This document shows, one piece after another, positions 10,532 through 63,140 of a stretch of 64,000 bases of DNA. Numbering within the stretch: position 1 is the first letter of the stretch; each line of letters begins with the position of its first letter. This DNA comes from Lunularia cruciata. Its lineage: Eukaryota; Streptophyta; Marchantiopsida; Lunulariales; Lunulariaceae. A model generated the notes under the pieces. It saw nothing but the letters and a program-made list of their open reading frames with translations. It was not told the origin of the DNA and did no database searches. Both the position numbers and the translations under genes were made by a program. Where the stretch lies: assembly GCA_948567375.1 (NCBI GenBank), contig OX419755.1:55756291-55820290 (forward strand), given 5' to 3'.

Positions 10532-10548
10532 CCCCCCCCCCCCCCCCA
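10532..10548. repeat. Homopolymer run of 17 C
   Basis: In the leader of B1. The matching place in B2 (about 62058) has only CCACCCC, so the run expanded in B1 or is an assembly artefact. Confidence 0.8.
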
Positions 10549-11111: not shown

Positions 11112-11114
11112 AAA

Positions 11115-39494: not shown

Positions 39495-41243
39495 CTTTAC
39501 ATTTGAAACATTAGCTCTACAACTTGGGATACCCATCCGTTGAAATTTTTTGAATATGAGCCATTGCACAACTTTTCAAGCCAAGAGTTGGTGTCCTCGG
39601 CTAAATTGGACGTCATCGTGCCATATCACACAGTTGGAAAGTGTGATCTTGCACACTTTATGATGTCACAACCAATCAAGTAGTTAGTCACAAGTGGATT
39701 TTCCAAGCAGATGACTTGGATTGCTACTTCATGCTCCCTTATCATCAGTGCCTTTGCTGCCATCCACATCTTGCACTTAAACATTGACTTAAAACTTGCA
39801 TTCACATTCTTTTCAAGGTGTATGTACAAACTGACTTGTGTGATTCTTGCAAGATAATGCATTGTGCATTATGCAAGCCCATTTTGCAATCATGCATGAG
39901 AATGAGGCCTGGCTGCCCAACCTTTTGAATTGAAGCTCTCAATTTCTGAAGGAAAAACACCCAATTTGCTTTATTCTTGATAGGTACAATGCAAGTGCAA
40001 AGTGGAACAATATGGCCTTTTGTGGTACCCACATTTTTTGTTTTCTTCTATTTTGTTAGAGTTTTTGAAGAAGAAGTTAGTAATAAAGCCAAATTATGAA
40101 GGAAAGGATGCACGGGGTGTGTCTTTGGATTAAACCTAAAGAACTTGACTTTGGGTCGGAAAGCAAATACTCAAATGAAAGCTACAAAGACACAAGTCCA
40201 AAGAAGTACTTGTCTTTGGACCAGGAAGCAAATGCCAATATGAAGATGGTCTAACAACCTTTCTATGTGGCAAGAAAGTACACTGCAAGAAACGGTAGAG
40301 GTAGGAGAAGCATGCCGTGATAGTGATAGGAAAGCAACACGTAAAAGAAGGAGGAGTTGATTTTGAAATTGACTAAAGAATGACTGCACTTTGGGGTAAT
40401 ATAAAATTTTGATTGCATAGGGGGAGATCAAATATGTCAAGTAGATATCTTGTTCCTCTAAGTAGTTGTCTTGTGTGTCAAGAAGCCGATTGACAGTGAA
40501 TTTTCTGAAGTCTAGAAGGGGTTAGAGTGTTGCGTCTAGGAGAGGGAATAGTTTTTTAGTGCTTAAGAACAAGAGCTCAAATCATAGCAAAGAAGGTTAA
40601 TGCACTTGCAGTAAGGAGCTTTGCAATTTGGAGGTTAGATGTCTTAGCAAGGATTGAAGTCTTGAATAGACTTTGTATTACATTTTTAGCCTAGAATTGG
40701 AATTTTAGTTTCCCATGAGCATGACAGAGATAGCTACTAGTAATTGTGAGGAAGGCCTTGAAGTCAAGGGGAAGAGAGGAAATCCCGCTTGATGGACTAA
40801 GTTGGATTGGAGGTTAGTATTGGGGAAGGAAGCAGGAGAGGCAACTAGAATCACTTTCTATTGGAAGTGTGATGCTGTAGAGGAGACCGTAGAAATTTGA
40901 AATGTGTTCTTTGCTCCGTGTATGACTAATAGCTACAGGGTGGAGTCCTATTGGGACCCAATTAAACAAAGCATCATTGGAGTGATAATGGCCATGTTCA
41001 AACCTAAATGAATGACCTATGCAAATATGTAGCAGGCTGTCTTCTTTTTCAGTTGTTTGCCAGAGTGAAGGTGAACTATGCATAGTGCTTCCACCAAAAA
41101 ACAAGGCATATGGTTGTCAAGTAGAGAAATAATTCACCTCCACATTATTTTTCACCTTTTGCAACACACTTCTACTTTGGGTTAAATTTATTGACCACAA
41201 AGGAGATGCAACGTATGGTGTCACATTTCTATCCTGACCTACA

Positions 41244-42110
41244 ATGAGAGGCAGACAAAGGAGAGCAACACTACATGACGCACCTATGAGCCATGATCAC
41301 TTCTGCAGAATGGGACAGCAAGAGAGGGAAGAAGTAAGACATCCAAAGACGAAGAAGCGGACTAAACTTGAAGAGAAAGAGTCACCTCAAGAACAGCGGA
41401 AGACCCGAAGACTTACTCTACAAGGTAAGAAGGTGGTGAGAGAAGAAACTACAAAAACTGAGTCTGAAGGGGAGACAAAGTCTAGAGGAGGAGACTCAAA
41501 AGAAGCAAAGCTCATGTTACAAAGTGGCGAATCTAGAAGTGAGAATGATGGAGAAGAAGAAGTTCAACAATCGGCTAAAGCGGAAGAGGATGAAGAATTT
41601 CATGCGGTGATTGATCGTATGGAAGGAAGTGCTAATCCTTATGTAGCCCTGGTCATAGAGGAGATAAGGATCAAACAGAAGAAGGAAGACCCTGCCGGGC
41701 TGAGTTTAGTGGGTAAGGAAGAAGCAAGCTCAAATGCAATATCATTGAAGGTACGAAGATCAATGATTCGTGAGAAGGAGCTGGCGGAAGAGAAGAAGTA
41801 CAAAGATGGGGCCAAAGATAAAGAGAATCTTGACAGAGGACAGTATTTAATGCAAATTGTAACTCCATTGTTGGAGCTATTGAAAGCACAACAAAAGGTA
41901 ATCCCGCAAGACCAAAGGAAGGTGAAGAATGAGTTGCAGATAGTGAAGTCTCTGCTAGATAAAGTAAAGGGATTGCAAGAACGTGTAGCTCAAAGAGAAG
42001 AAGAAGTTGAGGAGCTTTGGGTGGATATAGTCTTGAAGAAGAAGACCTTCAAGAAGTTACAAGATAGTTTTGAAGGGGAAGAGAGATGCAGCGTCAAGCG
42101 AAAGTATTGA
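41244..42110 (+). CDS. Family D coiled-coil protein in D1 (288 aa, probably truncated)
   Basis: No known family recognised. Very rich in Lys, Glu and Arg: residues 20-115 are basic/acidic and low-complexity, and residues about 165-280 have long heptad-like stretches (LLELLKAQQKV, LDKVKGLQERVAQREEEVEEL) predicting coiled coil. It stops at 42110, but downstream frames carry the same kind of sequence to a conserved end near 42945, so the original protein was longer and is broken here. D2 shows equivalent pieces on the minus strand (56617-56817, 56173-56439, 55603-55926, 55256-55567). It could be a structural or RNA-binding element protein. Function unknown. Confidence 0.55.
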   Translation: MRGRQRRATLHDAPMSHDHFCRMGQQEREEVRHPKTKKRTKLEEKESPQEQRKTRRLTLQGKKVVREETTKTESEGETKSRGGDSKEAKLMLQSGESRSENDGEEEVQQSAKAEEDEEFHAVIDRMEGSANPYVALVIEEIRIKQKKEDPAGLSLVGKEEASSNAISLKVRRSMIREKELAEEKKYKDGAKDKENLDRGQYLMQIVTPLLELLKAQQKVIPQDQRKVKNELQIVKSLLDKVKGLQERVAQREEEVEELWVDIVLKKKTFKKLQDSFEGEERCSVKRKY

Positions 42111-42699
42111 AGGAGCAAACGATGTTGCTAAAGAAGATGAAGGAGGAAGTCAATGAAGCATGCATCAAAAGTATTCATGTGAAGGTGATGGTATTAATGA
42201 TGGAGCAGGAGTTAGAAGGCTTGAAGAAGAGTGTAGCATGGAAGGATCAAGCATGGTAGAGAGAGTTGTTGATCTGACATCAAGAAAAAGAACAATTGAG
42301 AGACTTGCTAAGAAGTGTTGAGTTATAGAGTTCTCAATATGTGGAGGAGAAGAAGATGCTTGCTGTACAAAGGTGAGTTGAGGATGTATCAAGAAGAGTT
42401 AAAGGGAGAGCAATCTCAAGGATATACATCAGAATCCGTAGGAGAAGTTTTTGGAAGATTGTGAGCAATGCTGAGCACGGAGGCTGAAGGAAGATTGGAA
42501 GAAGCAAGGCTACATGAATTAAAGTTTCTTGTGTAGGAAACTTGGAAGAGATGAGCAAAGGATGTCAATATGAACACTCTCCTGATTCATTTACGGGAGA
42601 GAGTAGATAGAACGATGTTGGAAGTAGGAGACAACATCAATGTCAGATTAGATTTAGTGAATTTAGAGTTAGGAAGAATTAGGAGTAGTGTGCAAGAAG

Positions 42700-42945
42700 A
42701 TAAGAAGTCCAAAGTTGTAGAAGTAGGAGTGCAATTGTCTTTCAATTAGTTATTTGACACTTTAGAGAAAAGTGGGTTGGAAGAAAAAGAGTTAGATAAG
42801 GTATCCACTAATGTAATTGTAGTTCAGAGTGAAGAAGTAATAGAAATAGTGAAGGATTTGGTAGTTGTAGATATAGAAGGAGAAGTGATAGGAAGATCAT
42901 TGGGTTTGGAAGCCAAAGTCAAAGTTGACATTAGATTGGAGTAGT
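42700..42945 (+). pseudogene. C-terminal segment of the family D protein in D1
   Basis: Reads KVVEVGVQLSFN, a stop, then LFDTLEKSGLEEKELDKV and EEVIEIVKDLVVVDIEGEV, ending VDIRLE and a stop. The same segment is seen in D2 (EVGVQISLDLPLEILEKDG), D3 and D4. Confidence 0.6.
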
Positions 42946-43060
42946 AACAATTTTGAGATTTGAAGAGGCAAATATGAAGAGGTGCATTGTCATTTTGGAT
43001 CTGCAGGTAGGAAGAGTTGTTAGGAAATGGTATAGTTGTTATTACTTGCCAATTGCTTCA

Positions 43061-43070
43061 TTACTTAAAG
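43061..43070 (+). promoter_or_regulatory. TATA-like box of D1
   Basis: TTACTTAAAG followed by GGAGCATTTGCAG. The better preserved copies read TATTTAAAGG (D4 52881-52890; D2 minus 55028-55037), all at about 690 bp from the 3' end in intact copies. Confidence 0.5.
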
Positions 43071-44215
43071 GGAGCATTTGCAGTGTTATGATGTTCAATA
43101 TTCCAAATTTTTTAAGATGGATAAAGTGAAGTGCTCATTTTAGTGCTGATTTCAGTGCTCGTTGCTTGAGCTTGATTCCAAGTATTATCTTTATGTTTAT
43201 ATTTGTGAGTGTTGGGAGAATTTTGAAGTGAACATAGTGTGCTTGTTGGATGTTGGATTCCAGAGCCTTTTATCTTCATTCTGTGTGTTTGATTTTAAGT
43301 GAAGTGCAATTGGAGCAATGCCTTGACAAATCTGAGAGGAATTGTAATGTTGATAGTATTTTGTAGTTGTGAGTGCAGTACAATGTTGATGTGAAACAAT
43401 TTTGATCAAGGAACTTGTGCCCTCAGTAGATGGGTAGAACACAATTCTGAGGCAAAGTCATTTTGCAGTGAAGTGCTATCTTCGGGAGAATCTGAATCAT
43501 CACAATCAAGTTTTGTTTGGACAGAATTTGTTATTTTGTGATTATGAGTGTAAGATTCATGACAAGTTGTCAAGATTGAGTGCTCATTACTCTCTTCTGG
43601 GTGTGGTTTCTACTTGAGAGATTAAAGACTCAACCAAGAAGAACTACTTGTTATTGTTTGATTTTGTATTTGACCAATTCTGACCAATATCTTTGCAGGA
43701 ACAAACTTTACTTACCTGATTACCGCAAAAGTGATATTTGCTAGGTTGTCACACCTTTGCCATCATGAGTGCATGTAGACATTATCACACCACCATATCT
43801 TGAGTGTAAGTGGCATGCATCCACACTGACCATTGGCTGGCAATGATGAAATGCTAATTTTTGCAATTGAGGACATAGAAATGACCGCTCTATAGCACTC
43901 TCTACATTTCTCTCAAACCTCCATATTGCTCCAAGGCTTTTTTTGAGTGAATTCAAAAAAAAAACCTCTAGCAACATGAAGGAGTGGTCATTTTCCAAAC
44001 CATTATTCCTCTTGCACTAATTTAAAGCTCTCCATGCTATAGAGTAAGTAGTTGTCTGCCCGTGCTGAGCACAAACTTTTGCGTGCACATCAGCCGACAT
44101 GAAGGATTTGCAGTGCACCAACAAAGGCTACCAAAGCCGAAAAATTTGATATAGAAGTGAAAGGTACCATGGTGAAAAATGCAAAATGCACAAGGTTCAA
44201 TTTACAAAAATGTAC

Positions 44216-44905
44216 TGTAACACCATTTGTGCATGAGTTTGGTATTGTGATATTTAGCTTGGTATTACAAGTACTTGAGAGATATTATTTATATAGAGAT
44301 AAAGGATGGTTCTACTTTAGTCATGATTAGCTAAAGTTAGTCATAGCTAAGATAGAGAGGACCTTACTTTAGAGGAAGTGGAGAAGATGAGCACCACTAT
44401 TTTGGATTGTAATGTGTTGACTTGGTATTATTCCTAGGAGTTTGGCTTTGAAGAAAGAGTTGAGAACTCTTGGGCCCGCAAGCCTTTTTGTTTTGGATTC
44501 TTCTTTAGTCCAAGGATAGCCCATGTGAAGGAATCCTTGACTTAGTGGTTGAGTCAAGATAAGATCACATGCTTAGGGGAATATGCCTATGTGAATGGAT
44601 ATTCCTTTCTACTTTTGACTTTACTTGAGTTTTAGCCTAGTAATTTGAGTTACTCAAGTAATTAGTAACTTTGGTACGTAACTATTTCACAGGTATATAA
44701 ACAAGGGTTGAGGAGGTACTCAACATCCTTTCATTTTCAACTATCTCTCTCTCATTGAGTTCTCTAGTGAGCAAGGTCTTGAGTCTTGGAGTGTTAGCCT
44801 TGGAGGAGTATGATGGAGTTGGGGTTCCTTGCCTTCTTAGTCCATAGTGCACTACCATAATAGCCATCAGAGCTTCACCCTGAGTGAGAGACAGGCCGGC
44901 TCACA
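44216..44905 (+). repeat. Family B solo LTR in plus orientation (690 bp)
   Basis: TGTAACACCATTTGTGC...CCGGCTCACA, the reverse complement arrangement of the B1 LTR. No internal element sequence on either side; it lies in the MULE. Flanking 4-mers are GTAC and ATAC, one mismatch from the 4-bp duplication expected for this family. Confidence 0.9.
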
Positions 44906-45124
44906 ATACAAGGCCATCCTTATGTCTGTATGTTGTTATCCTTAAGTTGCAAGTTGGCATCAATCTTGCCCTTGTGGTAGCCTTGGTAGAGGGGTAGCAA
45001 ACATCAAGCTTATGCTGTTTGTTGCACTACACATAAAAAGAGAAGCTACTACGTGTTGCATATTTGGTGAAGCAAGGAGCGCAATTCATCTATTGTGTCA
45101 AATGTTTTCAGAAGCGTCAAATAT

Positions 45125-45380
45125 ATTTAGAGACATTGAGATTCTGAGATAGAGACAATAGAGCACAATGAAAAGCAAGTGTAGCAGCAAGTGCATATGG
45201 CTATCGTCAAACTTGACCATGTTTGCAAATAAAACTCTAGAATGAGCCCATTGAGATTTTGAGCTCTACAAGAGAGCTAGAGATAATAGAGCGCAATGAA
45301 AAGTGGAGCATGTGGCTATCAACTAACTTGCCCATGTTTGCAAATTAAATTTTGAAATGAGCCCATTTCTACAAATAAAA
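45125..45380. repeat. Diverged tandem duplication of about 120 bp
   Basis: CATTGAGATT.TGAG...GATA.TAGAGC.CAATGAAAAG...TTGCCCATGTTTGCAAAT occurs near 45135 and again near 45250. Confidence 0.65.
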
Positions 45381-45489
45381 TCAGGAATTCGCCTATTTTT
45401 TCAAATAAAAGTGTAACATGGCTCATTTATGAAAATTCCCCTTTCTAAATACAAAACAAGCAACATTAGTTGACTCAATAGCCTAGCAA

Positions 45490-45643
45490 AACCTCTATTG
45501 TATTCAACAAGATTAAGTGAAGTAAAAATAGATTAAATTCAGGCAATTCATATTTTGTACATGTAGAACCTCTATTGTATTCAACAAGATTAAGTGAATT
45601 AAAATAGATTAAGGTCAGGTAATTCATATTTTTATAAAATTGG
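45490..45643. repeat. 77-bp tandem duplication
   Basis: AACCTCTATTGTATTCAACAAGATTAAGTGAA.TAAAATAGATTAA..TCAGG.AATTCATATTTT starts at 45490 and 45567. Confidence 0.85.
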
Positions 45644-46020
45644 ACATAAATACGGTTCAATAGTGCTACTAAATATTAAGATTTACAAACACCTTTAAAT
45701 AAGTTTACTAATGTTACTTTACATTTAGTGGATATATTATCACCTCTTGAGTATTATTATTTTTCCAATATTTCTCAACAAGAAACTACTAGAAAAATCA
45801 TAAAGGATATCAATATATCAACTATTAATATATCTCACAAGAGAATATAATTAAATAATAATAAAATTAGAAAAATCAACAAAAATATCAATACATAATT
45901 ACTAATATGTTTCATTAGAAAAATATAAAAAAAGACAAAAAGAGCATTTAAAAAAATTAAAAGGAAAATTTCTTATTTTGAATATTTTATATGGATCATT
46001 CTGAAATACTATTCAGTAAT

Positions 46021-46082
46021 ACTCCCACGGGAGGCTGCAGTGGGGAATCTTGGACAATGGGCAAAAGCCTGATCTAGCAATC
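46021..46082 (+). pseudogene. Mitochondrial 18S rRNA fragment (nuclear insertion)
   Basis: ACTCCCACGGGAGGCTGCAG, TGGGGAATCTTGGACAATGG and GCAAAAGCCTGATCTAGCAA are the universal small-subunit 'CTCC.ACGGGAGGCAGCAG' region. GGGGAATCTTGGACAATGGGC is the plant mitochondrial or alpha-proteobacterial version and differs from the plastid version. Only about 62 bp are present, surrounded by AT-rich sequence, with a few substitutions, so it is a nuclear mitochondrial scrap and not an rRNA gene. Confidence 0.8.
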
Positions 46083-47795
46083 AGAGTAATATTATGTTTA
46101 TTCAAATAAGTTTCTAATTTTTTAGCCAAATTTGTCATAAAAGCTACATCTTGCTCAAAATGTTAGTTCAACTATGTTTTCTTTGGAAGCATGAGTTACT
46201 TCCATGATAACTTTCATTAAGCGAGTCAATATCCTATTGAGCATCTTTATAATCATGAGATAGTATAGTTATCATATGTTATTTATTCTTATAATGGAAT
46301 ATAGTGTGCTTTGAATAAAAGATTTTGAATATACTCAAAATAATCAAGATGAATTATTATGAGCTAATTAATCATGATTCTCCATACGTGTTGAATATGT
46401 CTAAACTTGTTTATCCAAGAAATAAAATGGTTTTAAAGTACAAGAAATGTGCAATGCAAACAAAGTTATAAATTACTCAATCTTGAAAGCTTAGCATATA
46501 TTTCTTATAATGGTTAAATTTTATATTTTTCCCATAGGAATGGATTAGCATCAAGTTTTATATGCTTCATAAGTAACATAGAAGACACTACCAATAATTT
46601 ACTATGATAATAGATTTGCAGTCTATAATTTGATGAATATAAGTATCCCACTAGATTTGTAAGATTGTTCATGGAAATGTTATTGTAGTAACTAGTGCTT
46701 AAGCAATTTTAATTACTCCTAACATAGTTAAGTGAACAAAATTTGAGTAAGGTCTTGAATGTATATGTAATATAGATATGTATGTGTAATTTTAACCGTC
46801 TCCTAGAATTACAAATCAGAATTGCAAGGAGTACCAAATTGAGGTAAATGAAGAGAGCTTTTTAGAGGGTTTATATGCTACCAATAATTTTCTATTACAG
46901 TATAAGATTAGTTTATAAAATGATGCATACTGGATTTATTTAAGGATCCCACTAGATTTTGCAATATTTTGCATGGAGATGCAATTGTAATAACTTGTGC
47001 TAAGCCTAATGTAATAACTCCTATCATAGTAGAAAGAGAAATCCTGAGTAAGATCTTAAGTGCAAATATAACTATCTTTTAGAACCACAATAAGAATTGC
47101 AAGGAGTACCAAATTGAGCTAAGTGACGATAGTGATAACTTTGAAAATTGAGAGTCTTGATTCCTCCTCCATGGGGCAAGGCAAGGCGCTTGGGTGTAGG
47201 AAAAGAGTGAATCAAACTAAAGAAGAAAATGGTTCAAATTGTACATCATTCAAATTGTAAGCACAAATTGTTCAATTTTGTTCTATTTGGGTTTCACTTG
47301 CAGAATTAAAGAATTGCCAAGAGAAAGAAATGACCATCGTGAATTTCAATGGGATATCTTGCTATCCAAGAGAGGTAGTTTCTAAACTCAAGGACATCTT
47401 GGGATAAAAGTGGTACATGTGAAATTCTTAAGTCTCTACTCTACATTCAACAGAGGTTTCAAATTACTGTAGAAGATTTAACCCTATTCAACATCTACAT
47501 ACTTGGAGTTGTATGGTTTTTATATTTTGAAAATACACATTTTAAGATTGAGAGAATACAAAACCATTCAATGGAGTCAATTTATATTTGACTTGTGACC
47601 TTTGGTTATTTGGCAGGGTAGTAGGTCAGAGCGTTAGGTCCAGAAGAAGTATTGTGATCTAACAAAATTATTACTTTAAGTATTATTGAGGAATTTGAAG
47701 CAGTTGAGATATGAATACTATTATAATAGAAATAGTGTATGGATTGGCCAAAGGAGTGGATCTTAGATTTATAAACTTCATCAGAGTGGCAATAT
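46083..47795. other. AT-rich stretch with a diverged duplication, no gene
   Basis: No protein recognised. GAATTGCAAGGAGTACCAAATTGAG occurs near 46820 and again near 47095, with similar flanking sequence on the left, suggesting an old duplication of about 280 bp. Confidence 0.5.
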
Positions 47796-48511
47796 TGTAA
47801 TACTCCAAGCACCAAAGAATTCTTCAAGAGAGATACAAGAGAGAAAACACAGATTTCACACTCAATCCTTCGATGCCCCAAAGGAGCACCTTCTCTTTAT
47901 TATATAGCCAAAGAGGATCTCCTCCAAGGAAGCTCCACTATAGGATTAGGTACATGGATAGGTGACCTATTAGCAAACATCACCCTTAGATTACTTGCTT
48001 GGATGGGTGACATGTTAGTTTTGGTCCCATTTGGTTGGTCAAACAGGCTTTGACCAAAAAGAATCTTTAGGGAATCTTCTTGCAGGAATCTCATGTGTGT
48101 GAGACATTATTGGAAAGCTCTTGGTGAAAGAAAAAATTGGGGAGATTTGCACATTTTTGAGGCCTAAGTTATCCGTTTAGGCCTCTAAAATTGCCTCAAG
48201 TTTTTAGACCTATTTTGGCTTCTTCTCTATTAGTAGAGGTGCTATTTTGGTGATACCTCTATCTGATCTATGTTCTCCATCATGTGTAAAATCCTCCTAG
48301 ATGTTACCACCCCAAATTTCACCTCTAGATCATATGCCTAGCTATTGATTCTAAAGTTTCCAAGCATATTTTGATTTCTGGCCTATTAGTAGAAGTACTC
48401 TTTTAGTGATACCTCTATCTGATCTACTTAGTCCATCATGTATAACATCCTTCTAGATCTTACCAAACCAAATTTCATCTCCAGATTATCTATCTAGCTA
48501 TTGGTATTACA
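47796..48511 (-). repeat. Family E 3' LTR, copy E2 (716 bp)
   Basis: In element direction TGTAATACCAATAGC...GTATTACA. It is preceded (48512-48535, minus) by the polypurine tract AAAAGGGGGGAGGTT, so this is the 3' LTR of an element whose inside was interrupted by A2 only 39 bp away. A 156-bp segment is duplicated in U3, which accounts for most of its excess over E1. Confidence 0.75.
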
Positions 48512-48550
48512 AACCTCCCCCCTTTTAAGATGCAATGTCCTCGTTGTTAA

Positions 48551-48951
48551 TGTAAAAGACTATGACCAAGGAGAGAAATAGGAGAATGGAAGCTCACATT
48601 GGAACACTTGAATGAGGGAAAAATTTGAATACCTAGCATGAGCTTTGGATCTTGTATTTATAGAGATCATAGAAGGCTCTTGAGAAGCTTCCTTGAGCCG
48701 GATTCTTGGAGTGCAAGCCAAGTTAATTGGGAAGCTTCTCAAGAAGCTTCCTTCTAGAAGTCGCTTACTTGGCATGTAAGCTAAGCTTGTTGGAACCTTC
48801 TAGAAGCTACTTACTTGAGGTGCAAGCTAAGCTTAGCCGGGAAGCTCTCCAAGAAGCTTCTTGGATACTTCTAGAATATTCTAGGCTAATTTCTCTTATT
48901 TGCTACTTCGTTAGCCCTATTAACTTTGTCGCTAAACTCCTTATTGTTACA
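48551..48951 (-). repeat. Family A 3' LTR, copy A2 (401 bp)
   Basis: TGTAACAATAAGG...TCTTTTACA in element direction, homologous to 12435-12889. It is preceded by the polypurine tract GTGGTGGGAGAATA (48952-48966, minus). It lies inside the family E remnant. Confidence 0.85.
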
Positions 48952-50288
48952 TATTCTCCCACCACTAGTTGGTGATGTCCTCATCGCCATTGAAGCTTCA
49001 AACTCCTGGATGGCCATTTTGGAGGTGAGAAAGAGGTTTCCATGTGGCATCATGAAGGGGATACCCTTTCTAAAGGACCTTGTACTCCGGATGTTGTTGG
49101 CATCCTCTTTAAATGTGGCGACGTGCAAGGATACAAACATGAAGGATCAACTTCATACTCCTCATGATCAGTGGTAGGGATGGGAGGAAGAGGAAGAGGA
49201 AGAGGAGGAGGAGGAGGAGGAGGAGGAGGAGGAGAAGGAGGTTGGACACAAGAGGAAAAAGAAGATGGGTTAGGAACAAAGGGTTCAACTTGGAAATATG
49301 AAAGACAGGGTAGATGTGCATATCACAAGGTAAGGAAAGTTGATAAGCAACATGAGAGATGATTTGGGTAAACTCAAAGCATCCTATCCAATTAGGGGCA
49401 AGTTTACACACTTGGGTATTCGGTGAATTGAGGATCATAGTCGGAGATGAGTACATGTGGCATCCTATGATGCTTGAAGACATTGTCAAAGTAGATTTGC
49501 GCTAAGGTTGGAGCATCCATGGTATCAAAGGTTGGTGCCAAGTGGTTTTGCTTACTAAGCTTATCCACAAACACGACGATCACTTTATGTCCTTACTTTG
49601 TCTAGGGCAAGGATGTGATGATCCAAGCTCACGTGTTTCCATTGAGTGGATGGAATGGGGAGTGGTTGAAAGAGTCCACTCGGCTTCTGGTTGCTGGCCT
49701 TGTTATGTTGGCAACTCTTGAACATCTCATGTCATGGTAGGCCACCACCATTGGCATTAGAGGGTACCAAAGGTCTTTTCCACACCCATGTGCCCATCTA
49801 TTGGTAAATCATGGGCTTCTTGAAGGCATACAAGTCAATCAAGATCACCTTTGGCTAGAACATAGATCTGGTCCTCATGGAATAAAAGACCTTCCTTGAA
49901 GGAGAAGGTGTTATACTCCTTGTCACATGTTGTAAGACAACCATTTGGAAGAAGGGATCTTATTGTAGAGCTGACCAAAACTTGTTTTGGGCCTTGGAGT
50001 CAATTGACACCATTGTAATTGTTGCCATGATGAGAGGAAGAGACTTCAAATCAGGTCACTGTGATAGAGCATTAGGGATGACATGGAACTGACCTGGTTT
50101 GTACTCAAGTTTGATATCAAACAATTGGAGTTGTTCCTCCCATTGATGATGTTGACTCTTCATGTGTTCCAAGTGTAAGGTCTATAACAATGGTTTATTA
50201 TCAGTTTGCATGATCACTTGTTTCTTCTAGAGATAATGCTTCCATACTTTGGTGGCATATACCATTGCAAGTTGCTCTCGGACTTGAC
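48952..50288 (-). pseudogene. A2 integrase and RNase H tail
   Basis: The integrase C-terminal module is clear at about 49330-49480 (KLAPNWIG...CDMHIYPVFHISKLNP). Upstream pieces 49490-50288 match 340-1215 of A1, through integrase core and zinc region into the end of RNase H. All frames are broken. The sequence stops matching family A at about 50288 and continues as family B. Confidence 0.75.
49181..49240. repeat. GAG/GGA trinucleotide-rich repeat
   Basis: About 60 bases of GAGGAAGAGGA... and (GGA)n in the A2 3' region. On the minus strand it produces an artificial poly-Leu run. Confidence 0.9.
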
Positions 50289-50655
50289 CCACAATCTCCT
50301 TGTACTCCATTGGAACCTTGTGAGTGATTGAGATTGTCATGAGCTCCTCATCCAAGAAGGAATCATCCATTAGCTCATCTCCATCATGATCATAGGCCTT
50401 AGATAACAAATCAGCATTTGCATGTTTCTTTCTTGGCCTATCCTCAATGGTCCAATCATACTCAGACAAGAGTATTATCCATCTTGCTAGTCTCCCTTCA
50501 CCATAAGGCTTGTTGAAGATGTACTTCAAAGCCTTGTGATCTATGACAATGGTGGCTTTCCCTCCAATCAAGTAGTGTCTAAACTTCTTGAGACCAAAGA
50601 TCACTGCCAATCCTTCTCTCTCCATGATAAAGTAGTTCTTTTCTATTGAAACCAT
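50227..50655 (-). pseudogene. B2 RNase H, reading frame running into A2 sequence
   Basis: Open frame with EREGLAVIFGLKKFRHYLIG and KKHANADLLSKAYDHDG from family B RNase H, then EIV; from there GQVREQLAMVYATKVWKHYL comes from family A. So a single frame crosses the B2/A2 junction near 50288. Confidence 0.75.
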
Positions 50656-50718
50656 CTGCCTACTAGCATAAGCTATTGGATGATCATGCCCATCTTGGTC
50701 TAATTGACTAAGAGTGCA

Positions 50719-51669
50719 TCATATAGCTACATTAGAAGCATTTGTGTAGAGGATGAAAGGCTTACTCCAATCAGGTCTAGCAAGAATTGGAGCTACAACA
50801 AGGGATTGCTTGAGCTCCTCAAAAGCTTTGAGAGCCTCCTTGTCCTCCAAAATCACCATGTAATCTACACCCTTCTTCATGTAGATGGTCAATGCAGAAG
50901 CCTTGTTGGAAAATGAGACGATGAACCTCCTATAGTACCCAACCATCCTCAAGAATTGGTGTAACTTTGTCAAGCTTGAAGGGAAAGGAAGGTCTGAGAT
51001 TTTCCTTATCTTCTCAAGATCAACTACTATTCCATCCTTGGAGATGATGTGCCTCAAAAGTAGACCTTCTTCACATCCAAAAATGCACTTCTCTGGGTTG
51101 AATGATGCATTTGACTGATCCAAGCGTTGCAAGACCTTGATTAGGTGCTCAAAGTGCTCCTCCTTGCTCCCATAGACACAAAAGTCATCAATGAAGTCTC
51201 ACAAATTTCCCAATGAAAGGTTCAAATACCTTGTTCATGAACCATTGGAATGTGGCTGGAGCATTGCAAAGCCCAAAAGGCATGCCTTGAAAGTGTAAGT
51301 TCTCCAAGGTGTGGTGAATGTGGTGAGTTATTGATGCTCTGGTGCAATCTTGATTTGGTTATACCCACTATAACCATCTCCAAAACTATACCTCTCATAT
51401 CTTGCAACCTCCTCCAAGATCTCCTCAATGAATGTCAAAAGGGTAATAGTCCTTCTTAGTAACAACATTAAGCTTCTTGTAATCCACACATACTCAAAGC
51501 TTGCTATTCTTTTTCTTCACAATGACAATTGGAGACACCCATTCCAAATTCTCCACCTCAAAGATAAATCTAGCTTCCTTGAGCTTATCAATCTCCTCTT
51601 TCACCACCAAAGATATTGGTGGGCTAATGCAATGTTGTTTTTGGTGGACTAGTCTTGCATGTGACTCCA
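50719..51669 (-). pseudogene. B2 reverse transcriptase, frameshifted
   Basis: 50719-51132 is the RT thumb and first part of RNase H (DLEKIRKISDLPFPSS, GYYRRFI, FILYTNAS with Asp to Asn at the first RNase H catalytic position). 51133-51669 holds the RT core in two or three frames (about 51222-51428 and 51494-51669). D4 cuts it at 51670. Confidence 0.8.
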
Positions 51670-53290
51670 TGTAGTACCCACATTTTTCATTTTGGACGAG
51701 TGTTGACGAAGAAGTGCCTTGTTGAAACCAAATTGAAACCAAATGGAGAAGAAATGAGAGGACACTTGTGTTTTTATCAGGCCCAAGGAAGTCAGCTTCA
51801 TGTCAGAGGAAGAAGGACTCGGATTGGATCACACCCAAAGAAGCTTACTTTGTGCAAGAGGAAGAGGAAGAAGGAGATTAGATGCCGAAGGAGGGTTACT
51901 TTGCATCAGAATGGAGGTTACAAGTAATGATTACTGCAGGAGCTATATCTTGGTAATAACATGTCCAAATCAAGCTTTTTATATTGTGTTGGAAGCGCCT
52001 CATTTAGAGCTTTCCATTACCACCAAAATTGTAGAGTTTGGAGGTTTATAGCAGAAGTTACAAGCATTTGAAGTTTTGAGAGTAGATGTATAGAGTAGTT
52101 GAGTGTTTTCGGGTTCACAATATTTTGGGTCTCTCCGACTTTGGGTCAAGATACTTTGCCTTAGGATGAAGGTGACTAGATCTAAGGTAGTCGGACCTCA
52201 GAGTGCAATGAAGGTGACTTTGGGAGTCTTGCAAGAGGCATCAAAGGAAGTTAGAGCAGTGAAAGAAGATATTTAGGATACCCATGATTTCAATTTTAGT
52301 TCTGATTGAAGATGAGATAGAAATTGAAGGAGAAATAGTAGTAGTGAATGAACCCAAAGTGCAAGATCAGACGATAAGTGTCTTCAAGTTAGTTACATGA
52401 GTGATAAGGGGAAAGTGAGTTACAAATTGAAGGCGTAAATAATGTACTTATGCTTTCAATTACAATTCTTAATGGGGATATATTAGAATTAGCAAAGGAA
52501 TTGATAGTAGTGAAACCTGAAGTAGATGACATAGGAGTACAGATATCTTTGGAGTTGCCATTGGAGATCTTAGAGAAAGATGGATTGCGGAATTGAGAGT
52601 TAGGAAGATTACCTATGAGTTTAATTGTAGATTAGGAAGAAGAAGTAGTAGAAATAATGAAAGAATTAGTAGTTGTTGAAGCCCAAGGATAGAGTACTAT
52701 GTGAGGTTACTTTGGGATTGGGTTTGGAAGCCAAGGAAGAGGTAGACATTGGATTGGAGTAGGAACAATTTTGAGATATGAAGAGGTAGATATGAAGAGG
52801 TGCATTGTCATTTTGGATCTGCAAGTAGGAAGAGTTATTGTAGAATGGTATAGTTGTTAGTAACTGCTAAAGTGCTTTACTATTTAAAGGGAACATTTGC
52901 AGTCATATGTTGTTCAGTATTCATTATTTCAGAGAATAGATAAAGCAAAGTGCTGTGAAGTAGTGCTCGTTGCTTGAGCTTAATTCCGAGTATCAATATT
53001 GTGATTGTGTTTGTGAGTGTGTGAAGAATTTCAAAGTGCAAGTCAGTGTGTTTGTTGGATGTTGGATTCCGCAACCTTGATTTTCATTTTGTGTGTTTGA
53101 TCTTAAGTGAAGTGCAATCAGAGCAAGGCCTTGACAGATCTGAAAGGAATTGTAGTGTTGGTAGTATTCTGCATTTGTGAGTGCAACGTAGTGTTGATGT
53201 GAAGCAATTTTGATTGAGGAAGTTGTGCCTTTAGTGGAGGAGTGGAACAAAATTTTGAGGCAAAGTTTTTTTTGCTGTGAAGTACCATTT
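51670..53290 (+). mobile_element. Family D element D4, 3' end deleted
   Basis: Begins TGTAGTACCCACATTTTTCA and matches D3 closely for its first 200 bp. It has the TATA box TATTTAAAGG at 52881-52890 and the protein tail DIGVQISLELPLEILEKDG at about 52530-52590. Its last ~290 bp and about 80 bp of adjoining B2 are missing, so no target duplication can be seen. The right boundary is approximate. Confidence 0.7.
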
Positions 53291-53293
53291 TTG

Positions 53294-54343
53294 GATGAAC
53301 TTGCGGAAAATCTCCTCAAATCTCACCTTCTCCTCCTTGGTAACATTTGGACCATACATGAGGTTAGATAACCTCCTCTCTATCTCCTCAACTGTCAATG
53401 GTGATTTATCTCGGTCCTTCAAAACCTCTACCTTAGGTGAAAAATCCATAACACACAAGGGATACATATCAAAATCAGATTTAGATTCATCCTCCTCCAT
53501 GGAAGTCTCCTCCTCCATGCTTGTGTCCACATCCAAAGCTCATTCTTCTGAATTTGATTCCCAATAATCAGAAGATGGTGTATTTGAATGTGAAGAGATG
53601 GTGGTATTAGTCACAAGAACTGCGACTCTATGGTTTGATGGCCCAATCCTCAAGTACCCTTTGTGCCATTGATTGGTTGTGCGTGTTGCTCTCAACAATG
53701 GCCTCCCAAGAAGTAAGTCATAGCTTGAATCCTTCAAGACTTAGAAAGTCATGAGATTTTGAACTCCTAAAACTAAAACTACCACCTTATCCATCACCCC
53801 TACTAGTTGAACTTGTTGCTTGTTTGCTATGCTCACCACAAATGTTGAAGATTTGGAGGGTATCATACCCAACTTCTTCATCAACCTTTTTGACATGGCA
53901 TTCATTGCTGATCCTCCATCAAACAATGCATCCTTGATGTTGTGACCATTCACTCTCACATCAATCTTGGAGGCATATTCACAAGCCTCCCATGGTGTTG
54001 GCTTGGCATCCACCAGCCCCATTGATATTGGAGCTTTTACCTTCTTCTTTCTCTTGCTCTTTGTAGAACTCAAACCAACTCTAAGCTCCTAACTCAAAAC
54101 AACTCTAAGCTCCTTTCTCAAAGTAGGATTCAAAGCAATCAATTGGCCCACTATGATGTTAGCCTTGTGACTACAAACATTCTCCAAGACATTGTAGTTC
54201 CATTGTTCCTTTGAGATCAAGAAGTCTTCCATCTCCAACTTCTTCCTTGGAGTCTTTGTTGTTGATGGTGTTGAAGTGCTTGTGTGAGTGCTCCTAGTAG
54301 GCATATGAGTATCTTGGCTAGGAGTAAATCCTTGAGAAGAGTG
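53294..54343 (-). pseudogene. B2 gag tail, protease and pol linker
   Basis: 53294-53536 is the acidic linker (EEETSMEEDE), 53540-53737 joins protease to pol (NQWHKGYLRIGPSNHRV, where B1 has a stop), 53741-54073 is protease (DALFDGGSAMN) and 54089-54343 the preceding gag segment. Small frameshifts separate the pieces, including a duplicated AACTC..AACTCTAAGCTCC near 54070-54110. D2 begins at 54349. Confidence 0.8.
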
Positions 54344-54348
54344 CACAT

Positions 54349-57300
54349 TGTGACAACCCGGCAAATATCACTTTTGTGGTAATCAGGTAAGTAAAGTTTG
54401 TTCATGCAGAGATATTGGTAAAAAATGTCCAAATACAAAGTCAAATGTCACAAATGTGGTTCTTCTTAAGTTCTTCTTTAGACTCTTGGGTAGAAACCAC
54501 ACCCAAAAGAGAGTAATAAGCATTGATTTGCAGTCTCGTCACACAAAAATGTCACACTTAATAACAACTCCATTAAATCTTTCCAAACAATCTTGATTGT
54601 GATAATTCAGTCTCTCCTAGAAATGACACTTCACCACAAAACTAGTTCTCCTCAGAATTGTGTTCCACCCCTCCATTGAAGGCACAACTTCCTTGATCAA
54701 AATTGCTTCACATCAACACTGCACTGCACTCACTATTGCATAATACTACCAAGACTACAATTACTTTCAGATCTATCAAGGCATTGCTCTAATTACAATT
54801 CATGCAGACACACATTCATACAAACACACATAATGAAGATCAAGGTTATGGAATCCAACATCCAACAAACACACTAACTTGCACTTCACAATTCTTCACA
54901 CTCACAAACACAAATGCAATGCTGATACTCAGAATTAAGCTCAAGCAACAAGCACTAAAATCCAAACACTTTGCTTTATCTATTCTCAAAATTATGAGCA
55001 CTGAACAACAACATACTGCAAATGCCTCCTTTAAATAGGCAATTCTTTGATAGTTATCTAACTCCCTAAACTGCTTCCTAACTACCTCTAACAATGTGCA
55101 AATCCAAAATGACAATGCACTTCTTCATATCTACCCTTTAAAATCTCAAATAAGTTACTACTCCGATCCAATTTCTACTTCTTCTTTGGCTTCTAAACCC
55201 AAAGTAACTTCACATACTACTCTATGCTTCACAACTACTTACTCTTCTACCAATTCTAACACCTCTTCCCTTGATCTACAATTACAGTCATGGGCAACCT
55301 GCATACATCTTCTTCTTGCAACCCATCCTTCTCTAATATCTCCAATGGCAAATCCAGAGATATTTGTACTCCTACCTCTTCTACTTCAGGTCTAACTCTT
55401 ACATCCTTCTGAAGTTTATCTACTTCTAACTTAACTAAATTTAATTGAATCGTGATATTGTCTTCCACTTCCAATATCTTCCTATCTACATGAGTTTTGA
55501 GACTAATCAATGATGCATTCAAGTCCTTATTCTTTGCATTTCTTCTCCTTGTCTCTTGTACCAACAATCATAACCTTGACTTGTGCAGTCTCATTTCTCA
55601 ACTCATATACTGGCTTTAGTACTAAGCATTCCATTCATCTTCACTACTATCTCCTTCAATGGGTTGAGCCTCATCCTTCTCTCACGTTCCTTATCCGGCA
55701 GCCAGCCTTCTTGGTACATTGCTAGTTTTGCCTCAACCTCGGCCTTCACATTCTTCTTCTCCTTCTCTTTTTGCACTATCTTCTTGTCCAGATTACAAAG
55801 TAGTTCCCACAATCTTTCTTCTTCTTTATACCTCACTATTAACTCTCTTTGCTTGAGTTGCTTCTTCTCTTCTACACTCTTCATCAAACTATCGAGTTCT
55901 TTCTCCTTCTTTGCTACCCTCGCCATAGCATGGATGACTTCTATTCAAGAATCACCAAACTGCTACTTCAAGATTTTGTACTTAGCTATTTGTCTTTCCT
56001 TGGCTAAGACATTTTGTTCTATTACTCTATCTTTACTCCCCACTTCTCTCTTTAAATTTTCAATTAACTAATTCTATACTATTGCATCTACTCACAATAT
56101 CTCCTATTGCTCCTCTCCTTGGGTTATACTCTCCTTCAACTCCAAGTTTTTTACTTCTAACCACTCTAGCACCTACAGAGTAGTTTTTACCTCAAGATAC
56201 TCTAATTGCATTCCTTTCTTCTTCTTCTCCATCTTCATTAGGAATAGGCAGACAATCTTCCTCAGATACTCCACCCCTCTATTCTGGTTTCCTTCTTCTT
56301 GTGGGCTTTTCTCCTTCTTTGCCTCTTCTTTGCTTAACACTCTTTTTCTCAGTTGGAGTCGTCTAATTGGAATTGATTTCTTGCTCCCCAAACTCTCACT
56401 TTCCATTTCTCTCCTTTGAATTGGCCTTGCCTCATGCATTGTGCTTCCTCTTGATTTGATACCTCTCTAAATGATAACCTTCTTCTCCAATCTCTTTGGA
56501 ACTTCCTCTTCTTCTTTTTGGTTATCTTTGTCTGCCATCTCTAGCTTTCCCTCTTCTCCCTTTGGTACCGGTTGCATCTCCACTCCATCCTCAATCTTGC
56601 TACTTGCTTCACCACTCTACAACGTGAGTTCAGGTTCCTCTTCTCTCTCCAAGTCTTTTGACTTGTACTTGGCCTCACCTTCTGATTCTTCCTCTGATGA
56701 CGCTATTACCACCATGTCTTTCTTTGGGTTCACTTTCTTGGTCTTCCGTGGTCTCATAGCCACCACTTCTTCCTCAGGTTGACTCCTCTTCTTTGAATTT
56801 GGAGCAATCACCGCCAATGCCCCGTTTGTGCATAATACTCATCACTACTTCTAATTTGAAAAATATATGGTTGCTTGTCTGCATCATCATCTCTCCTCAA
56901 GTTGGGATGGAAGTGTGACACCATCTTGTGTCACTCTACCACATTCAGTAGATTCAATCCCAAGTAAAAATAGGCTCAAATGGCACAATTTAGTGTGGAG
57001 GTGTCTTATCCCATAAATTCCACAACATCTATCTCATGCACTGATGAAAGCACTTTGCCCAATTGATGGGTTCCCCTACAAACATCTTATGGAAAAACAC
57101 CGCTTGGTGTTTCATCACATAAGTGGTTTGCTCCAGCTTGAAGATGACCATCATTGCTCCTCTGATTCCTCTCCCCACAAGGTCCTTATAAGTCTCGACC
57201 TTGACCTTATATCCATTCTTTGTGCATTTTGAAGAAAAGGCGTCTCTTACTTCTTGGGTTTCTTTAGCTACCTCTCCTCTCCCCAAGAATGTGGCTCCTT

Positions 57301-58146
57301 GCTCCTCACCCACCTCTCTTCTGAGTGCTAACCTCCAATCCGACTCTATCTATAGAGCCAGATTTCCTCTCTTACCTCATGCCTTGGGTCCATCTAGACA
57401 CTTACTCTCTATTATCTTGGTCATGAAACCTGGAAAGAAAAGGTTCTAGTTCCATGCTAGAAACGTGATCCAAAGCATGCTCAAGACTTTGATCCTGGTG
57501 ATCACATCTAACCTCTAAATTGCATGATTTCTCACTGCAAATTTCAAGTTCTTCTTTCCACCTCCCATATTACTCTCTTCCACTCTAGGTTGATGACAAC
57601 TCTTCCGCCTGATTCCCAGATTGACGATCCTAACTTCCTCTCAATGCACAAATGCATCCCTTACTACAATCCCTTTTCCACGATCTCCAACCATGACTTC
57701 TTAATGGCAATGGGAATTTACTTGTCATTCCTCCTCTCTTTGTCTCAATCCCAAATCTTATAATTGTGTGTCTCCTCAGTCTCTCTTCACTTTGAGCTTC
57801 TATCAAGAAATCACACATTTTGCATGCTCTTGTCAATGTCAATTTTCTCCCGCTCATAGGCCAACCATTTTTTTGTGCGGTACCTTCTTGAATGTCCAAC
57901 CCCAAAGGAAAGTTGTTACACTATCTTTGCCTCGTGTTGAGCATCCCAAGCCAAAGTTTCATTACATTGATTGCTGATTGGACCAATCCGTACTTCATTT
58001 TCTAACACAAAGTCACTTTACTTTGGGTTACAACCCAAAGAAACTATTCTTTGCCTTCCAATGCCCTATAGGTACAATACAACCTTTTTTGTACACTTCT
58101 TCAAAATAAGATGAAAACTTAAAAAAACAAAAATGTGGGTACCACA
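54349..58146 (-). mobile_element. Family D element D2 (3798 bp), probable giant solo LTR
   Basis: In element direction starts TGTGGTACCCACATTTTT (58146) and ends CCGGGTTGTCACA (54349). Perfect 5-bp CACAT flanks at 54344-54348 and 58147-58151; removing the element rejoins B2 gag, as in B1 near 8432-8455. TATA box TATTTAAAGG on the minus strand at 55028-55037, 688 bp before its end. Minus-strand frames at 57630-57905, 57029-57313, 56617-56817, 56173-56439, 55603-55926 and 55256-55567 represent a decayed long protein, the last four Lys/Glu-rich. Confidence 0.8.
55256..57905 (-). pseudogene. Family D protein in D2, broken into several frames
   Basis: The N-terminal part (57630-57905, 57029-57313) is not low-complexity: it has VIFKLEQTTYVMKHQAVFF and GEPINWAKCFHQCMR, reminiscent of the 'putative plant transposon protein' ORFs of plant repeats, but I cannot confirm this. 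The middle (56173-56817) is charged (KKRSQPEEEVVAMRPRKTKK). The C-terminal coiled coil (55603-55926) is KEKELDSLMKSVEEKKQ-like, and the tail at 55256-55567 holds EVGVQISLDLPLEILEKDG. Frameshifts and stops between them mean no intact protein. Confidence 0.5.
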
Positions 58147-58151
58147 CACAT

Positions 58152-59035
58152 CCTCTACAAAACAAGCTCTCTTCTTCTCTTGTACCAAAAGATCCAAATG
58201 AAGACCTTTGGAGTTTGAGCACTCCCCCTTCTCATACTTGCTCTCAACCACATCTATGGATGCTATCCCTTTACCTTTGTTTGGATTAAGAGCCACTTCG
58301 GTTTCACTTCCTCCCTCTTTCCCTCTATTGGCTTCCTCATAACCTCTTCCTCCATGGTAAGTGGAATTTGGGCAATTCCTTTGGATATGGCCTCTTCCTC
58401 CACAACCAAAACAATTTCTATCATTAAAATTGCTGGCTGGTTGGCCTCCTCTATATGGATAGTTTCCATAACTCCTAGGCTCTCTCCCTACATTCTGATC
58501 CACTTCTCTCTTTTCCCATAGTTGCACTGCATTGACCTTGTGATCTGCAAGTTGTTTAGTGATAGCTTGAAGTGGATCCTTTGGTAGGGGTGCAAGAACT
58601 GGGGTAACTACTACTTGTGGTGCAACCCTTGTCACCAAAGTATCAAAAGTTCCACCATACTTGTAACCTTGAGGAGGATGCACAACCTCCTTCACCACCA
58701 AATCACTCTCATCATTCCCTTCCAAACTCTCCTCCATGCAAATTGTGATCTTGATAGCTTCAACCTTGGAATTCTTGGTGAGCATGGCCCCTATGCCAAT
58801 CATAGTAGTCTCCACATCATCCTCACCCTTCCTCAACACTATGCAAAATTTGGACTCTAACTTTTCCACTCTTTCCACATAGATTCTCACTTTCTCTCCA
58901 TCTCCTTGCTTGAGAAAGGTAACCTCAATCATCAATCTCTCATAACTCTTGTTTGGAAGAAAGTTCTCAATGAGTGCTGAAATTAAACTTCCCCAAGACT
59001 CTTCTTGCACATCTCTCTTCTCTCTCTTTTGGTGT
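58152..59035 (-). pseudogene. B2 gag middle part with zinc knuckle
   Basis: Open through most of the capsid-like region and the knuckle NCFGCGGRGHIQRNC, same as B1. Relative to B1 it lacks the FVGGLRPQ segment (deletion near 58770). It is cut by D2 on one side and D3 on the other. Confidence 0.85.
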
Positions 59036-60958
59036 TGTGGTACCCACATTTTTCATTTTGGACAAGTTTTGAAGAAGTGCTTTGCTGAAACCAAATTGAA
59101 ACCAAATGGAGAAGAAATGAGTGGAAACTTGTGTTTTGATCAAGCCTGAGGAAGTCAAATTTGTATTGGAAGAAGAAGTACTTGGATTGGATCAAACCCA
59201 AAGAAACTTACTTTTTATCAGAGGAGGAGGAGGAGGAGGAGGAGGAAGAAGAAGGAGGAGGTCAGATGCTTGAAGATGGTATTTCGCATCGGAATGAAGG
59301 TTACAGGTCAAGATTCTTGCGGGGGTTGTATCTCAATAACGACATGTCTAAATCAAGTGTGCTATATTTTGTTAGAAGCGCCTTGTCTAAGGCTTTCTTT
59401 TGCCACCAAAATTGCAAACTTGGAGGTCTATAACAAAAGTTATAAGCATTTAAAGTTTTGGGAGTAGATGTACAGAGTAGGGTAGTGTCTTTGGGTCTAC
59501 AAGACTGCGGACTTTGGACTTCGGACGTTGGACGTTGGGTTTACAAGACTTTGGGTCTAAAGACTTTGCCTCAAGACAAATGTGATTCAATCCGAGGTAG
59601 TTAGACATCAAATGTAAGAGTCTTCGGGTTAGATATTTGAAGCGTCTTAAATAGTTGGAGTAGAGAAAGAAAATATTTAGGATACCCATGACTTCAATTT
59701 CAATTCTGATTGAGGAATAAGATAGAATTAGAAGAGACATAGTAGTAGTGAATGAAACCAAAGTGCACGATCAGACAATAAGTGTCTTTGGATCAATTAC
59801 ATGAGTGATTAGGGGAAAATGGGTTACAAATTGAAGGTGTAGATAATGTACCCATGCTTTCAATTACAATTCTTGATGATGATATAGTAAAATTAACAAA
59901 AGAATTGATAGTAGCAAAGTCCAAGGTTGCAGAAGTAGGAATTCAAGTGTCTTTGGACTTGTCATTTGAGACATTAGAGAAGAGTGGGTCGGGAGATAAA
60001 GAGATAGAAGAGTTCCTCGTGATCTCAATTGTAGTTCCTAGTGAGGAAGTAGTAGAAATAATAAGGGAATTAGCAGAATCAGATATACTCAAAGAAGGAG
60101 AAGTAGTAGGAAGATCATCGGGTTTGAAAGCCGATGAGAAGGTGGACATTGGATCAGAATAGAAACAGTTTTGGGATTTGAAGAGGTATATATGAAGAGG
60201 TGCATTGTCATTTTGGATCTACAGGTTAGAAGAGTTGTTATAGAACTCTATAGTTGTTAGTAATTCTCAATTGCTTCACAATTAAAAGGAGACATTGCAA
60301 TGAAATGTTGTTCAATATTCATATTTCTAAAGATAGATAAAGCAAAGTGCTGATTATAGTGCTCGTTGCTTGAGCTTAATTCCAAGTGTCAACTTTGTGC
60401 TTGTGTTTGTGAGTGTGTGGAGAATTTTGAAGTGCAAGTCAATGTGTTTGTTGGATGTTGGATTTCGTAGCCTTGATCTTCATTCTGTGTGTTTGATCCT
60501 GAGTGAAGTGCAATCAGAGCAATGCCTTGACAAATCTAAGAGGAATTGTAGTGTTGGTAGTATTCTGCATTTGTGAATGCAACGCAATGTTGATGTGAAG
60601 CAATTTTGATCAAGGAAGTTGTGCCTTCAATAGAGGGGTGGAACAAAATTTTGCGGCAAAGTCATTTTGTAGTGAAGTGTAGTCTTTGAGAGAATCTAAA
60701 TCATCACAATCAAGATTTGTTTGGGTAAAATTTGCTATGTTGTGATTCTAGGTGTATGTATTCATGACAAGTTGTCAAGATTGTGAGCTTGTTACTCTCT
60801 TCTGGGTGTAGTTTCTACCTAAGAGACTAAAGACATAACCAAGAAGAACTACATGTTACTATTTGACTTTGTATTTGGACATTTCTGACCAGTATCTCTA
60901 GGGGAACAAACTTTACTTACCTAATTACCGCAAAAGTGATATTTGCCGGGTTGTCATA
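59036..60958 (+). mobile_element. Family D element D3 (1923 bp, internally shorter)
   Basis: Starts TGTGGTACCCACATTTTTCA and ends CCGGGTTGTCATA; perfect 5-bp GGTGT flanks at 59031-59035 and 60959-60963. The B2 gag frame rejoins when it is removed. It lacks about 1.8 kb of the D1/D2 middle but keeps both ends, the TATA-like AATTAAAAGG (60280-60289, 678 bp before the end) and the C-terminal protein segment. Confidence 0.8.
59854..60162 (+). CDS. C-terminal part of the family D protein in D3 (102-aa open frame)
   Basis: Contains EVGIQVSLDLSFETLEKSG, then IVVPSEEVVEIIRELAES and a terminal KVDIGSE before the stop, matching the tail seen in D1, D2 and D4. Open from an internal Met; the true N-terminus is lost with the internal deletion. 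Unknown function. Confidence 0.5.
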   Translation: MLSITILDDDIVKLTKELIVAKSKVAEVGIQVSLDLSFETLEKSGSGDKEIEEFLVISIVVPSEEVVEIIRELAESDILKEGEVVGRSSGLKADEKVDIGSE

Positions 60959-60963
60959 GGTGT

Positions 60964-61105
60964 TTTGACTCATACCATGTAAGTGATGCATCCTTATAGA
61001 TTTATTCCTCCTCTCATTGTTTCCTATGAAAGCTCTCTTGAAGTCTCTCATAAAGGCCTTCACATCTTCTCCATCCTTGCCAAAGAAAACTAGAAGTTTC
61101 TCCAT
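60964..61105 (-). pseudogene. B2 gag N-terminus
   Basis: MEKLLVFFGKDGEDVKAFMRD from 61105, corresponding to MGKLPVFFGKDGEDVEAFVRD of B1 at 9556. A small deletion follows and then D3. Confidence 0.8.
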
Positions 61106-63136: not shown

Positions 63137-63140
63137 GTAC

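Follow-up and report, generated by a model that had tools for sequence, protein, structure and literature searches.

Long terminal repeats of a Ty3/Gypsy family in Lunularia cruciata and the gene that they probably once carried

In a 64,000-bp stretch of the Lunularia cruciata genome (GenBank assembly GCA_948567375.1, contig OX419755.1, positions 55,756,291 to 55,820,290 of the forward strand; hereafter the window), four copies of a large repeat, here called D, are found. D is the long terminal repeat (LTR) of an abundant and old Ty3/Gypsy retrotransposon family. Statistics of the aligned copies indicate that the long type of this LTR held a gene of approximately 790 codons on its sense strand, which was selected while lineages of the element transposed and decayed in each copy after insertion. 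We put the probability at roughly 80% that D is a Ty3/Gypsy LTR family whose long LTRs carried a once-selected accessory gene, with the gene being placed, as we infer, in the 3' unique region (U3).

The D copies of the window

D1 and D2 represent a long type of 3.7-3.8 kb, and D3 and D4 a short type. The copies and their target-site duplications are located in the window as follows.

40021-43753, plus strand: D1, long-type solo LTR of 3733 bp with both ends and a 5-bp duplication; at other places of the genome this repeat serves as an LTR
40016-40020: left copy of the D1 target-site duplication, CCTTT
43754-43758: right copy of the D1 target-site duplication, CCTTT
51670-53291 (right limit approximate), plus strand: D4, short-type LTR, right end deleted
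54349-58146, minus strand: D2, solo LTR of 3798 bp, of the long type and from a second subfamily
54344-54348: one copy of the D2 target-site duplication, CACAT
58147-58151: other copy of the D2 target-site duplication, CACAT
59036-60958, plus strand: D3, short-type solo LTR of 1923 bp, with a recognisable gene remnant limited to the gene's end (59998-60159)
59031-59035: one copy of the D3 target-site duplication, GGTGT
60959-60963: other copy of the D3 target-site duplication, GGTGT

An initial annotation of the window had described identical ends and perfect 5-bp duplications in D1, D2, and D3, and CCTTT, CACAT, and GGTGT were re-read without mismatch. The three copies share the first word TGTGGTACCCACA (from 40021 in D1, from 59036 in D3, and on the minus strand from 58146 in D2) and terminate with GTTGTCACA/GTTGTCATA. 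The fourth copy had been called truncated, and D4 indeed aligns with D3 from base 1 and has lost its right end together with approximately 62 bp of host sequence. No repeat was found inside any D copy, in agreement with the reported absence of an internal LTR boundary. The last 1.05 kb are common to all D copies at 73-81% (for D4, in the preserved portion), and D1 and D2 are 42-64% alike in windows across most of their length. At its left end, each of D1, D2, and D3 starts with the 13 bases TGTGG-TAC-CCACA, in which TAC separates the two arms of a 5-bp inverted repeat.

The host of D2, D3, and D4 is a single minus-strand Gypsy element that covers approximately 49.1-64.0 kb of the window. A Gypsy relative of this host, at 331-1209 and 5971-11805 of the window, is uninterrupted and has a single AACAT at the D2 site and a single GGTAT at the D3 site. 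These words are each one base apart from CACAT and GGTGT, which the D2 and D3 sites carry twice. D1, D2, and D3 are solo LTRs with 5-bp duplications, as had been proposed for them. Such solo LTRs would arise from recombination between the two LTRs of one element. Among the 19 loci best matching D1 (itself solo), a sample whose solo ratio is not representative of the genome, 15 have both D ends. Nine of these carry perfect 5-bp duplications (D1 included) and two carry duplications with one mismatch, the remainder being one 5' LTR, one 3' LTR, and two loci with two and four mismatches. Nesting of D copies in other D copies was observed at L007 (C7:57310422-57315089) and at C7:35296396-35300954, where L numbers denote the genome loci that were compared.

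D as the LTR of a Ty3/Gypsy element

The 565.8-Mb assembly was searched with D1; the best 40 of 16,272 candidates were scored and 71 matches were listed, and a chance origin of D is therefore excluded. Directly oriented D copies flanking a primer site and gag-pol, which the initial annotation expected of full relatives, were found; inverted termini with a transposase or LTR borders inside D, which it held to be contrary outcomes, were not observed. The internal region of approximately 6 kb has the order D right end, primer-binding site (PBS), gag-like frame with zinc knuckles, reverse transcriptase (RT), ribonuclease H (RNase H), integrase, purine tract, and D left end. In the six copies that were closely inspected (L006, L022, L024, L032, L033, and L035), the PBS lies directly 3' of the D right end, in place of a target-site duplication. 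Its common word is TGATTTTTGGCRCC-like, with one base differing in L024, and resembles a motif that we take to be of the tRNA-Asp type. The purine tract abuts the D left end in four copies (L018, L026, L036, and L038). L032 and L018 adjoin on one contig, where a truncated D is followed by the PBS, the gag-like frame, RT, RNase H, integrase, the purine tract, and a complete D.

Both junctions recur throughout the scored matches. With a query across the D/PBS junction, 40 out of 40 matches span the junction (best 40 of 4,477 candidates), and the same holds for all 40 matches of a tract/D query (best 40 of 2,332 candidates), the query's own locus being counted in each case; two of the tract/D matches retain merely 23 bp of D. 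Seven junction pairs lie on the same strand at a spacing of 4.8-8.4 kb. Paired D ends are mutual nearest relatives in all four elements compared, with 87.4-90.6% identity versus at most 85.1% to any other end in the set, and the Kimura two-parameter (K2P) distance between paired LTRs is 0.10-0.14. A fifth element (L037/L038) was excluded from this comparison because another D splits its 3' LTR. Since D copies flank the PBS, gag-pol, and the purine tract, and since paired ends are nearest relatives, D is identified as the LTR of a Ty3/Gypsy element.

Matches above cut-off were obtained for RT (PF00078, 1e-12), RNase H (1e-31), and the integrase zinc domain (8e-7). In L032, the domains and motifs are placed as follows.

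7504-7902: RT
within 7965-8591: RNase H
within 8879-9103: integrase zinc domain
within 9082-9318: integrase core (E 6e-5, below cut-off)
4899-5774: two C-X2-C-X4-H-X4-C motifs, plus a third in which one Cys is replaced

A Pfam gag match on L031 was below cut-off. Pfam returned no aspartic protease in the two pieces scanned, and no chromodomain was matched in stop-free pieces from the end of pol. The pol frame stops 10 bp upstream of the 3' LTR.

The opposite orientation of D was also considered, prompted by the reversed right end, which starts with TGTGACAACCC, and by a CAG/GTAAGT-like word; it is ruled out by the placement of the PBS and the purine tract. The word itself, a splice-donor-like GTAAGT preceded by CAG or TAG approximately 40 bp into the antisense LTR end, is kept in D1, D2 (54349-54400), and D3.

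A probable gene inside the long LTR

The following parts of the putative gene are found in D1 and D2.

40584-42944, plus strand: LTR-gene remnant in D1 of approximately 790 codons, interrupted by stops and shifts of frame, with TAG at 42942-42944
41238-42107, plus strand: coiled-coil-like, stop-free piece of 290 codons in D1, the open reading frame (ORF) of the initial annotation
55158-57568, minus strand: LTR-gene remnant in D2, broken

The initial annotation was right to place a coiled-coil gene inside the LTR and underestimated its size, as the 290 amino acids are a fragment of a decayed frame of approximately 790 codons. This frame was followed in an alignment of 20 long-type rows (16 nearly full-length long copies, D2, and three partial copies). 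In L002, it is bounded by an upstream stop at 354 (88% of rows) and an end stop at 2969 (95%), and its ATG at 573 is kept in 89%. Positions 573 and 2969 correspond to 564 and 2922 of D1, in which the gene spans approximately 565-2920 and ATA is read where other copies keep the ATG. Runs free of majority stops (a stop in at least half of the 19 D1-type rows) reach 536 codons in the L002 register, 495 in that of L010, and 491 in that of L006. The minus strand of the same alignment gave 170 codons, and 200 dinucleotide shuffles gave at most 145, the latter derived from one copy's sequence and thus not like for like with the alignment. Internal stops present in 30-65% of rows face mostly CGA, CAA, CAG, or TGG (this holds for the main alternatives at these sites and not for every copy), a pattern that would match the decay of methylated C.

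Codon-position statistics point to past selection. Compared with D2, a third-position excess is seen in six out of six open segments (p 3.6e-10 to 1e-3; nucleotide alignments); the right-hand control part shows none (p 0.67). Over 2,216 columns, L002 differs from D2 by 0.41/0.35/0.58 at codon positions 1/2/3 (p 1.8e-18), and for L018 versus D2 the values are 0.43/0.33/0.58 (p 1.6e-21). The four within-element LTR pairs, when pooled, give 0.128/0.103/0.119 (p 0.067) without a third-position excess. Because the excess exists between LTR types and is absent within element pairs, selection probably acted in the transposing lineages and ceased in inserted copies. In 150-bp windows the phase signal starts near 600, is strong to 1200, and is lacking outside the gene. 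Among long-type copies alone the phase test is weak (p<0.05 in 7 of 19 windows, two of them left of the gene, and p<0.01 in one), as most changes there would postdate insertion. Diverged gene pieces beyond the D1- and D2-like matches are present at five loci, four of which were tested and agree (five comparisons, p 3.5e-5 to 0.016), and further LTR subfamilies seem to carry the gene.

L029:853-1368: diverged LTR-gene piece
L010:6088-6717: diverged LTR-gene piece
L020:4412-5011: diverged LTR-gene piece
L007:294-725: diverged LTR-gene piece
L005:6165-6453: diverged LTR-gene piece

The short copies D3 and D4 retain just the last part of the frame, and their comparison gave no phase signal in any of seven windows, including where the gene end lies.

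Several findings weigh against an LTR family with a once-selected gene. The frame is broken in all 20 long-type rows, whose longest open sense-strand piece is 291 codons; in nine LTR pieces from paired elements the longest is 239. The windowed phase signal is patchy from 1200 to 2970, and near 1300-1400 the register shifts in most copies. A single gene is read because the L010 register is continuous there; two overlapping frames might take the place of one gene. D3 and D4 lack most of the gene and yet transposed or were mobilised. Moreover, none of the elements inspected combined two complete LTRs with a matching 5-bp duplication, as they were truncated or had flanks that were unlike or not found: in the C2 candidate the flanks differ, and the 5' end of the C6 candidate lies outside the stretch examined.

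Protein searches, which covered database entries between 0.55 and 1.75 times as long as the query, returned no relative of the 290-residue ORF product at E<=1, nor of alignment A1 (six N-terminal pieces) at E<=0.1. Coiled-coil pieces gave only below-cut-off matches in Pfam (Med9 with E 5e-4; Med9 with 0.015 and two weaker ones), and no match was obtained with A1 in Pfam or among solved structures, or with four pieces in NCBIfam. An AlphaFold2 model of the 290-residue piece alone has a mean predicted local distance difference test (pLDDT) score of 61, with long helices predicted at 161-218 and 223-289. The product may have been an accessory factor of the element; its N-terminal part is better conserved, and a long part of it is coiled-coil-like.

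Possible placement in U3 and expression

Two TATA-like sites bear on where transcription of the element would start.

43061-43071, plus strand: TATA-like site TTACTTAAAGG of D1
55028-55037, minus strand: TATTTAAAGG of D2

The claim that D1, D2, and D3 share the same TATA-like box holds in part: the exact word TATTTAAAGG occurs in D2 and D4 only, and aligned TATA-like variants occur in D1 (TTACTTAAAGG) and D3 (CAATTAAAAGG). Near 3041, D4 and both long types preserve the TATTTAAAGG site amid diverged surroundings, and a TATTTAAAG-like word stands at the aligned place in 13 of the 20 long-type rows. The placement of the gene in U3 rests on this TATA-like site. If genomic RNA starts just after it (near 3041 of D1), the gene would lie in U3, and the repeat region (R) and 5' unique region (U5) would together measure approximately 0.66 kb. 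The genomic RNA would then lack the 5' gene copy and carry the 3' copy at its end, and both LTRs would receive the gene through reverse transcription. The gene might be expressed from the 3' part of the genomic RNA or from its own promoter, for which a TATAAA-like word near 376, approximately 190 nt upstream of the ATG, is a candidate; it occurs in 14 of 20 rows, a weak count as the copies are closely related. By extension, each long LTR might be a full gene cassette with a promoter near 376, the gene of approximately 790 codons, and the LTR's poly(A) signal, which we consider rather unlikely.

Alternative explanations

The same word near 376 could instead mark the main start, in which case the gene would be located in a very long R and form the first frame of the genomic RNA. 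Its position ahead of a well-kept ATG suits this arrangement, which would however need an R of more than 2 kb, and preservation of the TATTTAAAGG site, with the rest diverged, speaks for a start near 3041; we regard the long R as improbable. Alternatively, the gene may be a host gene that the D family captured once and that did not serve the element. Host-gene capture is known in plant LTR elements, according to the accessible portion of a review (PMC7264820), and the short type does without most of the gene. Yet the length-limited protein searches found no relative outside the family, and the third-position excess recurs in several subfamilies, so we give capture little credence.

The frame could also be no gene at all and a mere by-product of purine-rich, T-poor sequence. 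The strand is A+G-rich, composition alone gives minus-strand gaps of up to 170 codons, and every copy is broken. This reading leaves unexplained both the codon-position asymmetry versus D2, which neither the element pairs nor the control part show, and the frame gaps of 491-536 codons, far from the shuffled values even if these are not like for like; it is very improbable. The initial annotation further considered that D is a complete non-autonomous element resembling a large retrotransposon derivative (LARD), or that it belongs to a different class of transposon that makes 5-bp duplications. The window copies, with TG...CA ends, one protein-like frame, and no RT, would suit such elements; both readings are contradicted by the PBS, gag-pol, and purine tract that paired D copies enclose, and next to no weight is left for them. 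The Ty3/Gypsy LTR with a once-selected gene is thus the reading that we prefer.

Other features of the window

Besides D, the window holds the following features.

18389-19132, minus strand: open frame of a VQ-motif protein that shares 93% identity with a Marchantia polymorpha protein and 85% with one from Riccia sorocarpa, as would be expected of a complex thalloid liverwort
3615-11805, minus strand: first copy of a second Ty3/Gypsy element with LTRs of approximately 690 bp; long open gag-pol frames of 590, 365, and 501 codons
approximately 49109-63989, minus strand: second copy of the same element, into which D2, D3, and D4 are inserted
12911-13540, plus strand: open frame of 209 codons that, by eye, resembles the end of a Ty1/Copia polyprotein

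Comparison with known systems and significance

In some retroviruses accessory genes overlap U3, for example mouse mammary tumour virus (MMTV) sag and lentiviral nef. The D gene would resemble them as a sense-strand accessory gene in the 3' LTR that is doubled into both LTRs. The likeness is positional only, and a sequence relation was neither found nor expected. The D family may be akin to the non-chromovirus Ty3/Gypsy elements of the Marchantiopsida, with the Tat/Athila (OTA) lineage, whose members lack a chromodomain, as a candidate affiliation: the PBS of D elements resembles a tRNA-Asp type, and no chromodomain was matched in the pieces scanned. A gene in the LTR is not mentioned in the accessible portion of the description of those Marchantiopsida elements.

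Additional ORFs outside gag-pol have been described in the plant Ty3/Gypsy elements Athila, Grande, RIRE2, Retand, and PvRetro13, and the accessible part of the review in question places such ORFs in the internal region (PMC7264820). As far as described there, these elements share with D an extra gene of unknown function that is kept across copies and lies 3' of pol, and the SMC domain described for the PvRetro13 ORF (PMC7264820) can be counted as a likeness to the coiled-coil-like D gene. In those elements the ORF is located between pol and the 3' LTR, whereas the D gene lies inside the repeat and hence at both ends of the element and also in solo LTRs. Retrosat2 and other plant elements likewise combine LTRs of more than 3 kb with an extra ORF, which in Retrosat2 (ORF0) is internal, upstream of gag-pol and outside the LTR, in contrast to the D gene (PMC3485330, accessible portion). 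A literature search, mostly without subscription journals and in part limited to accessible portions, returned no plant case of an ORF or gene inside an LTR, and a published case may exist.

The L. cruciata genome, represented by a 580-Mb assembly, was enlarged by Ty3/Gypsy bursts, as stated in the accessible part of its description (PMC9985172). In the D family, a gene that was apparently selected occupies approximately two-thirds of the long LTR, an unusual place for a gene. Such a location would double the gene in each element, leave one copy in every long-type solo LTR, and tie the gene to a promoter. D also suggests a route to a giant LTR, namely priming from a purine tract upstream of a 3' gene. 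If the long LTRs were indeed full gene cassettes, solo LTRs would be dispersed single-gene units, in place of dead footprints, that could provide full and short-LTR elements with the accessory protein in trans, and the recombination that yields solo LTRs would multiply the gene rather than delete it. The expression of solo LTRs as gene units thereby becomes testable.

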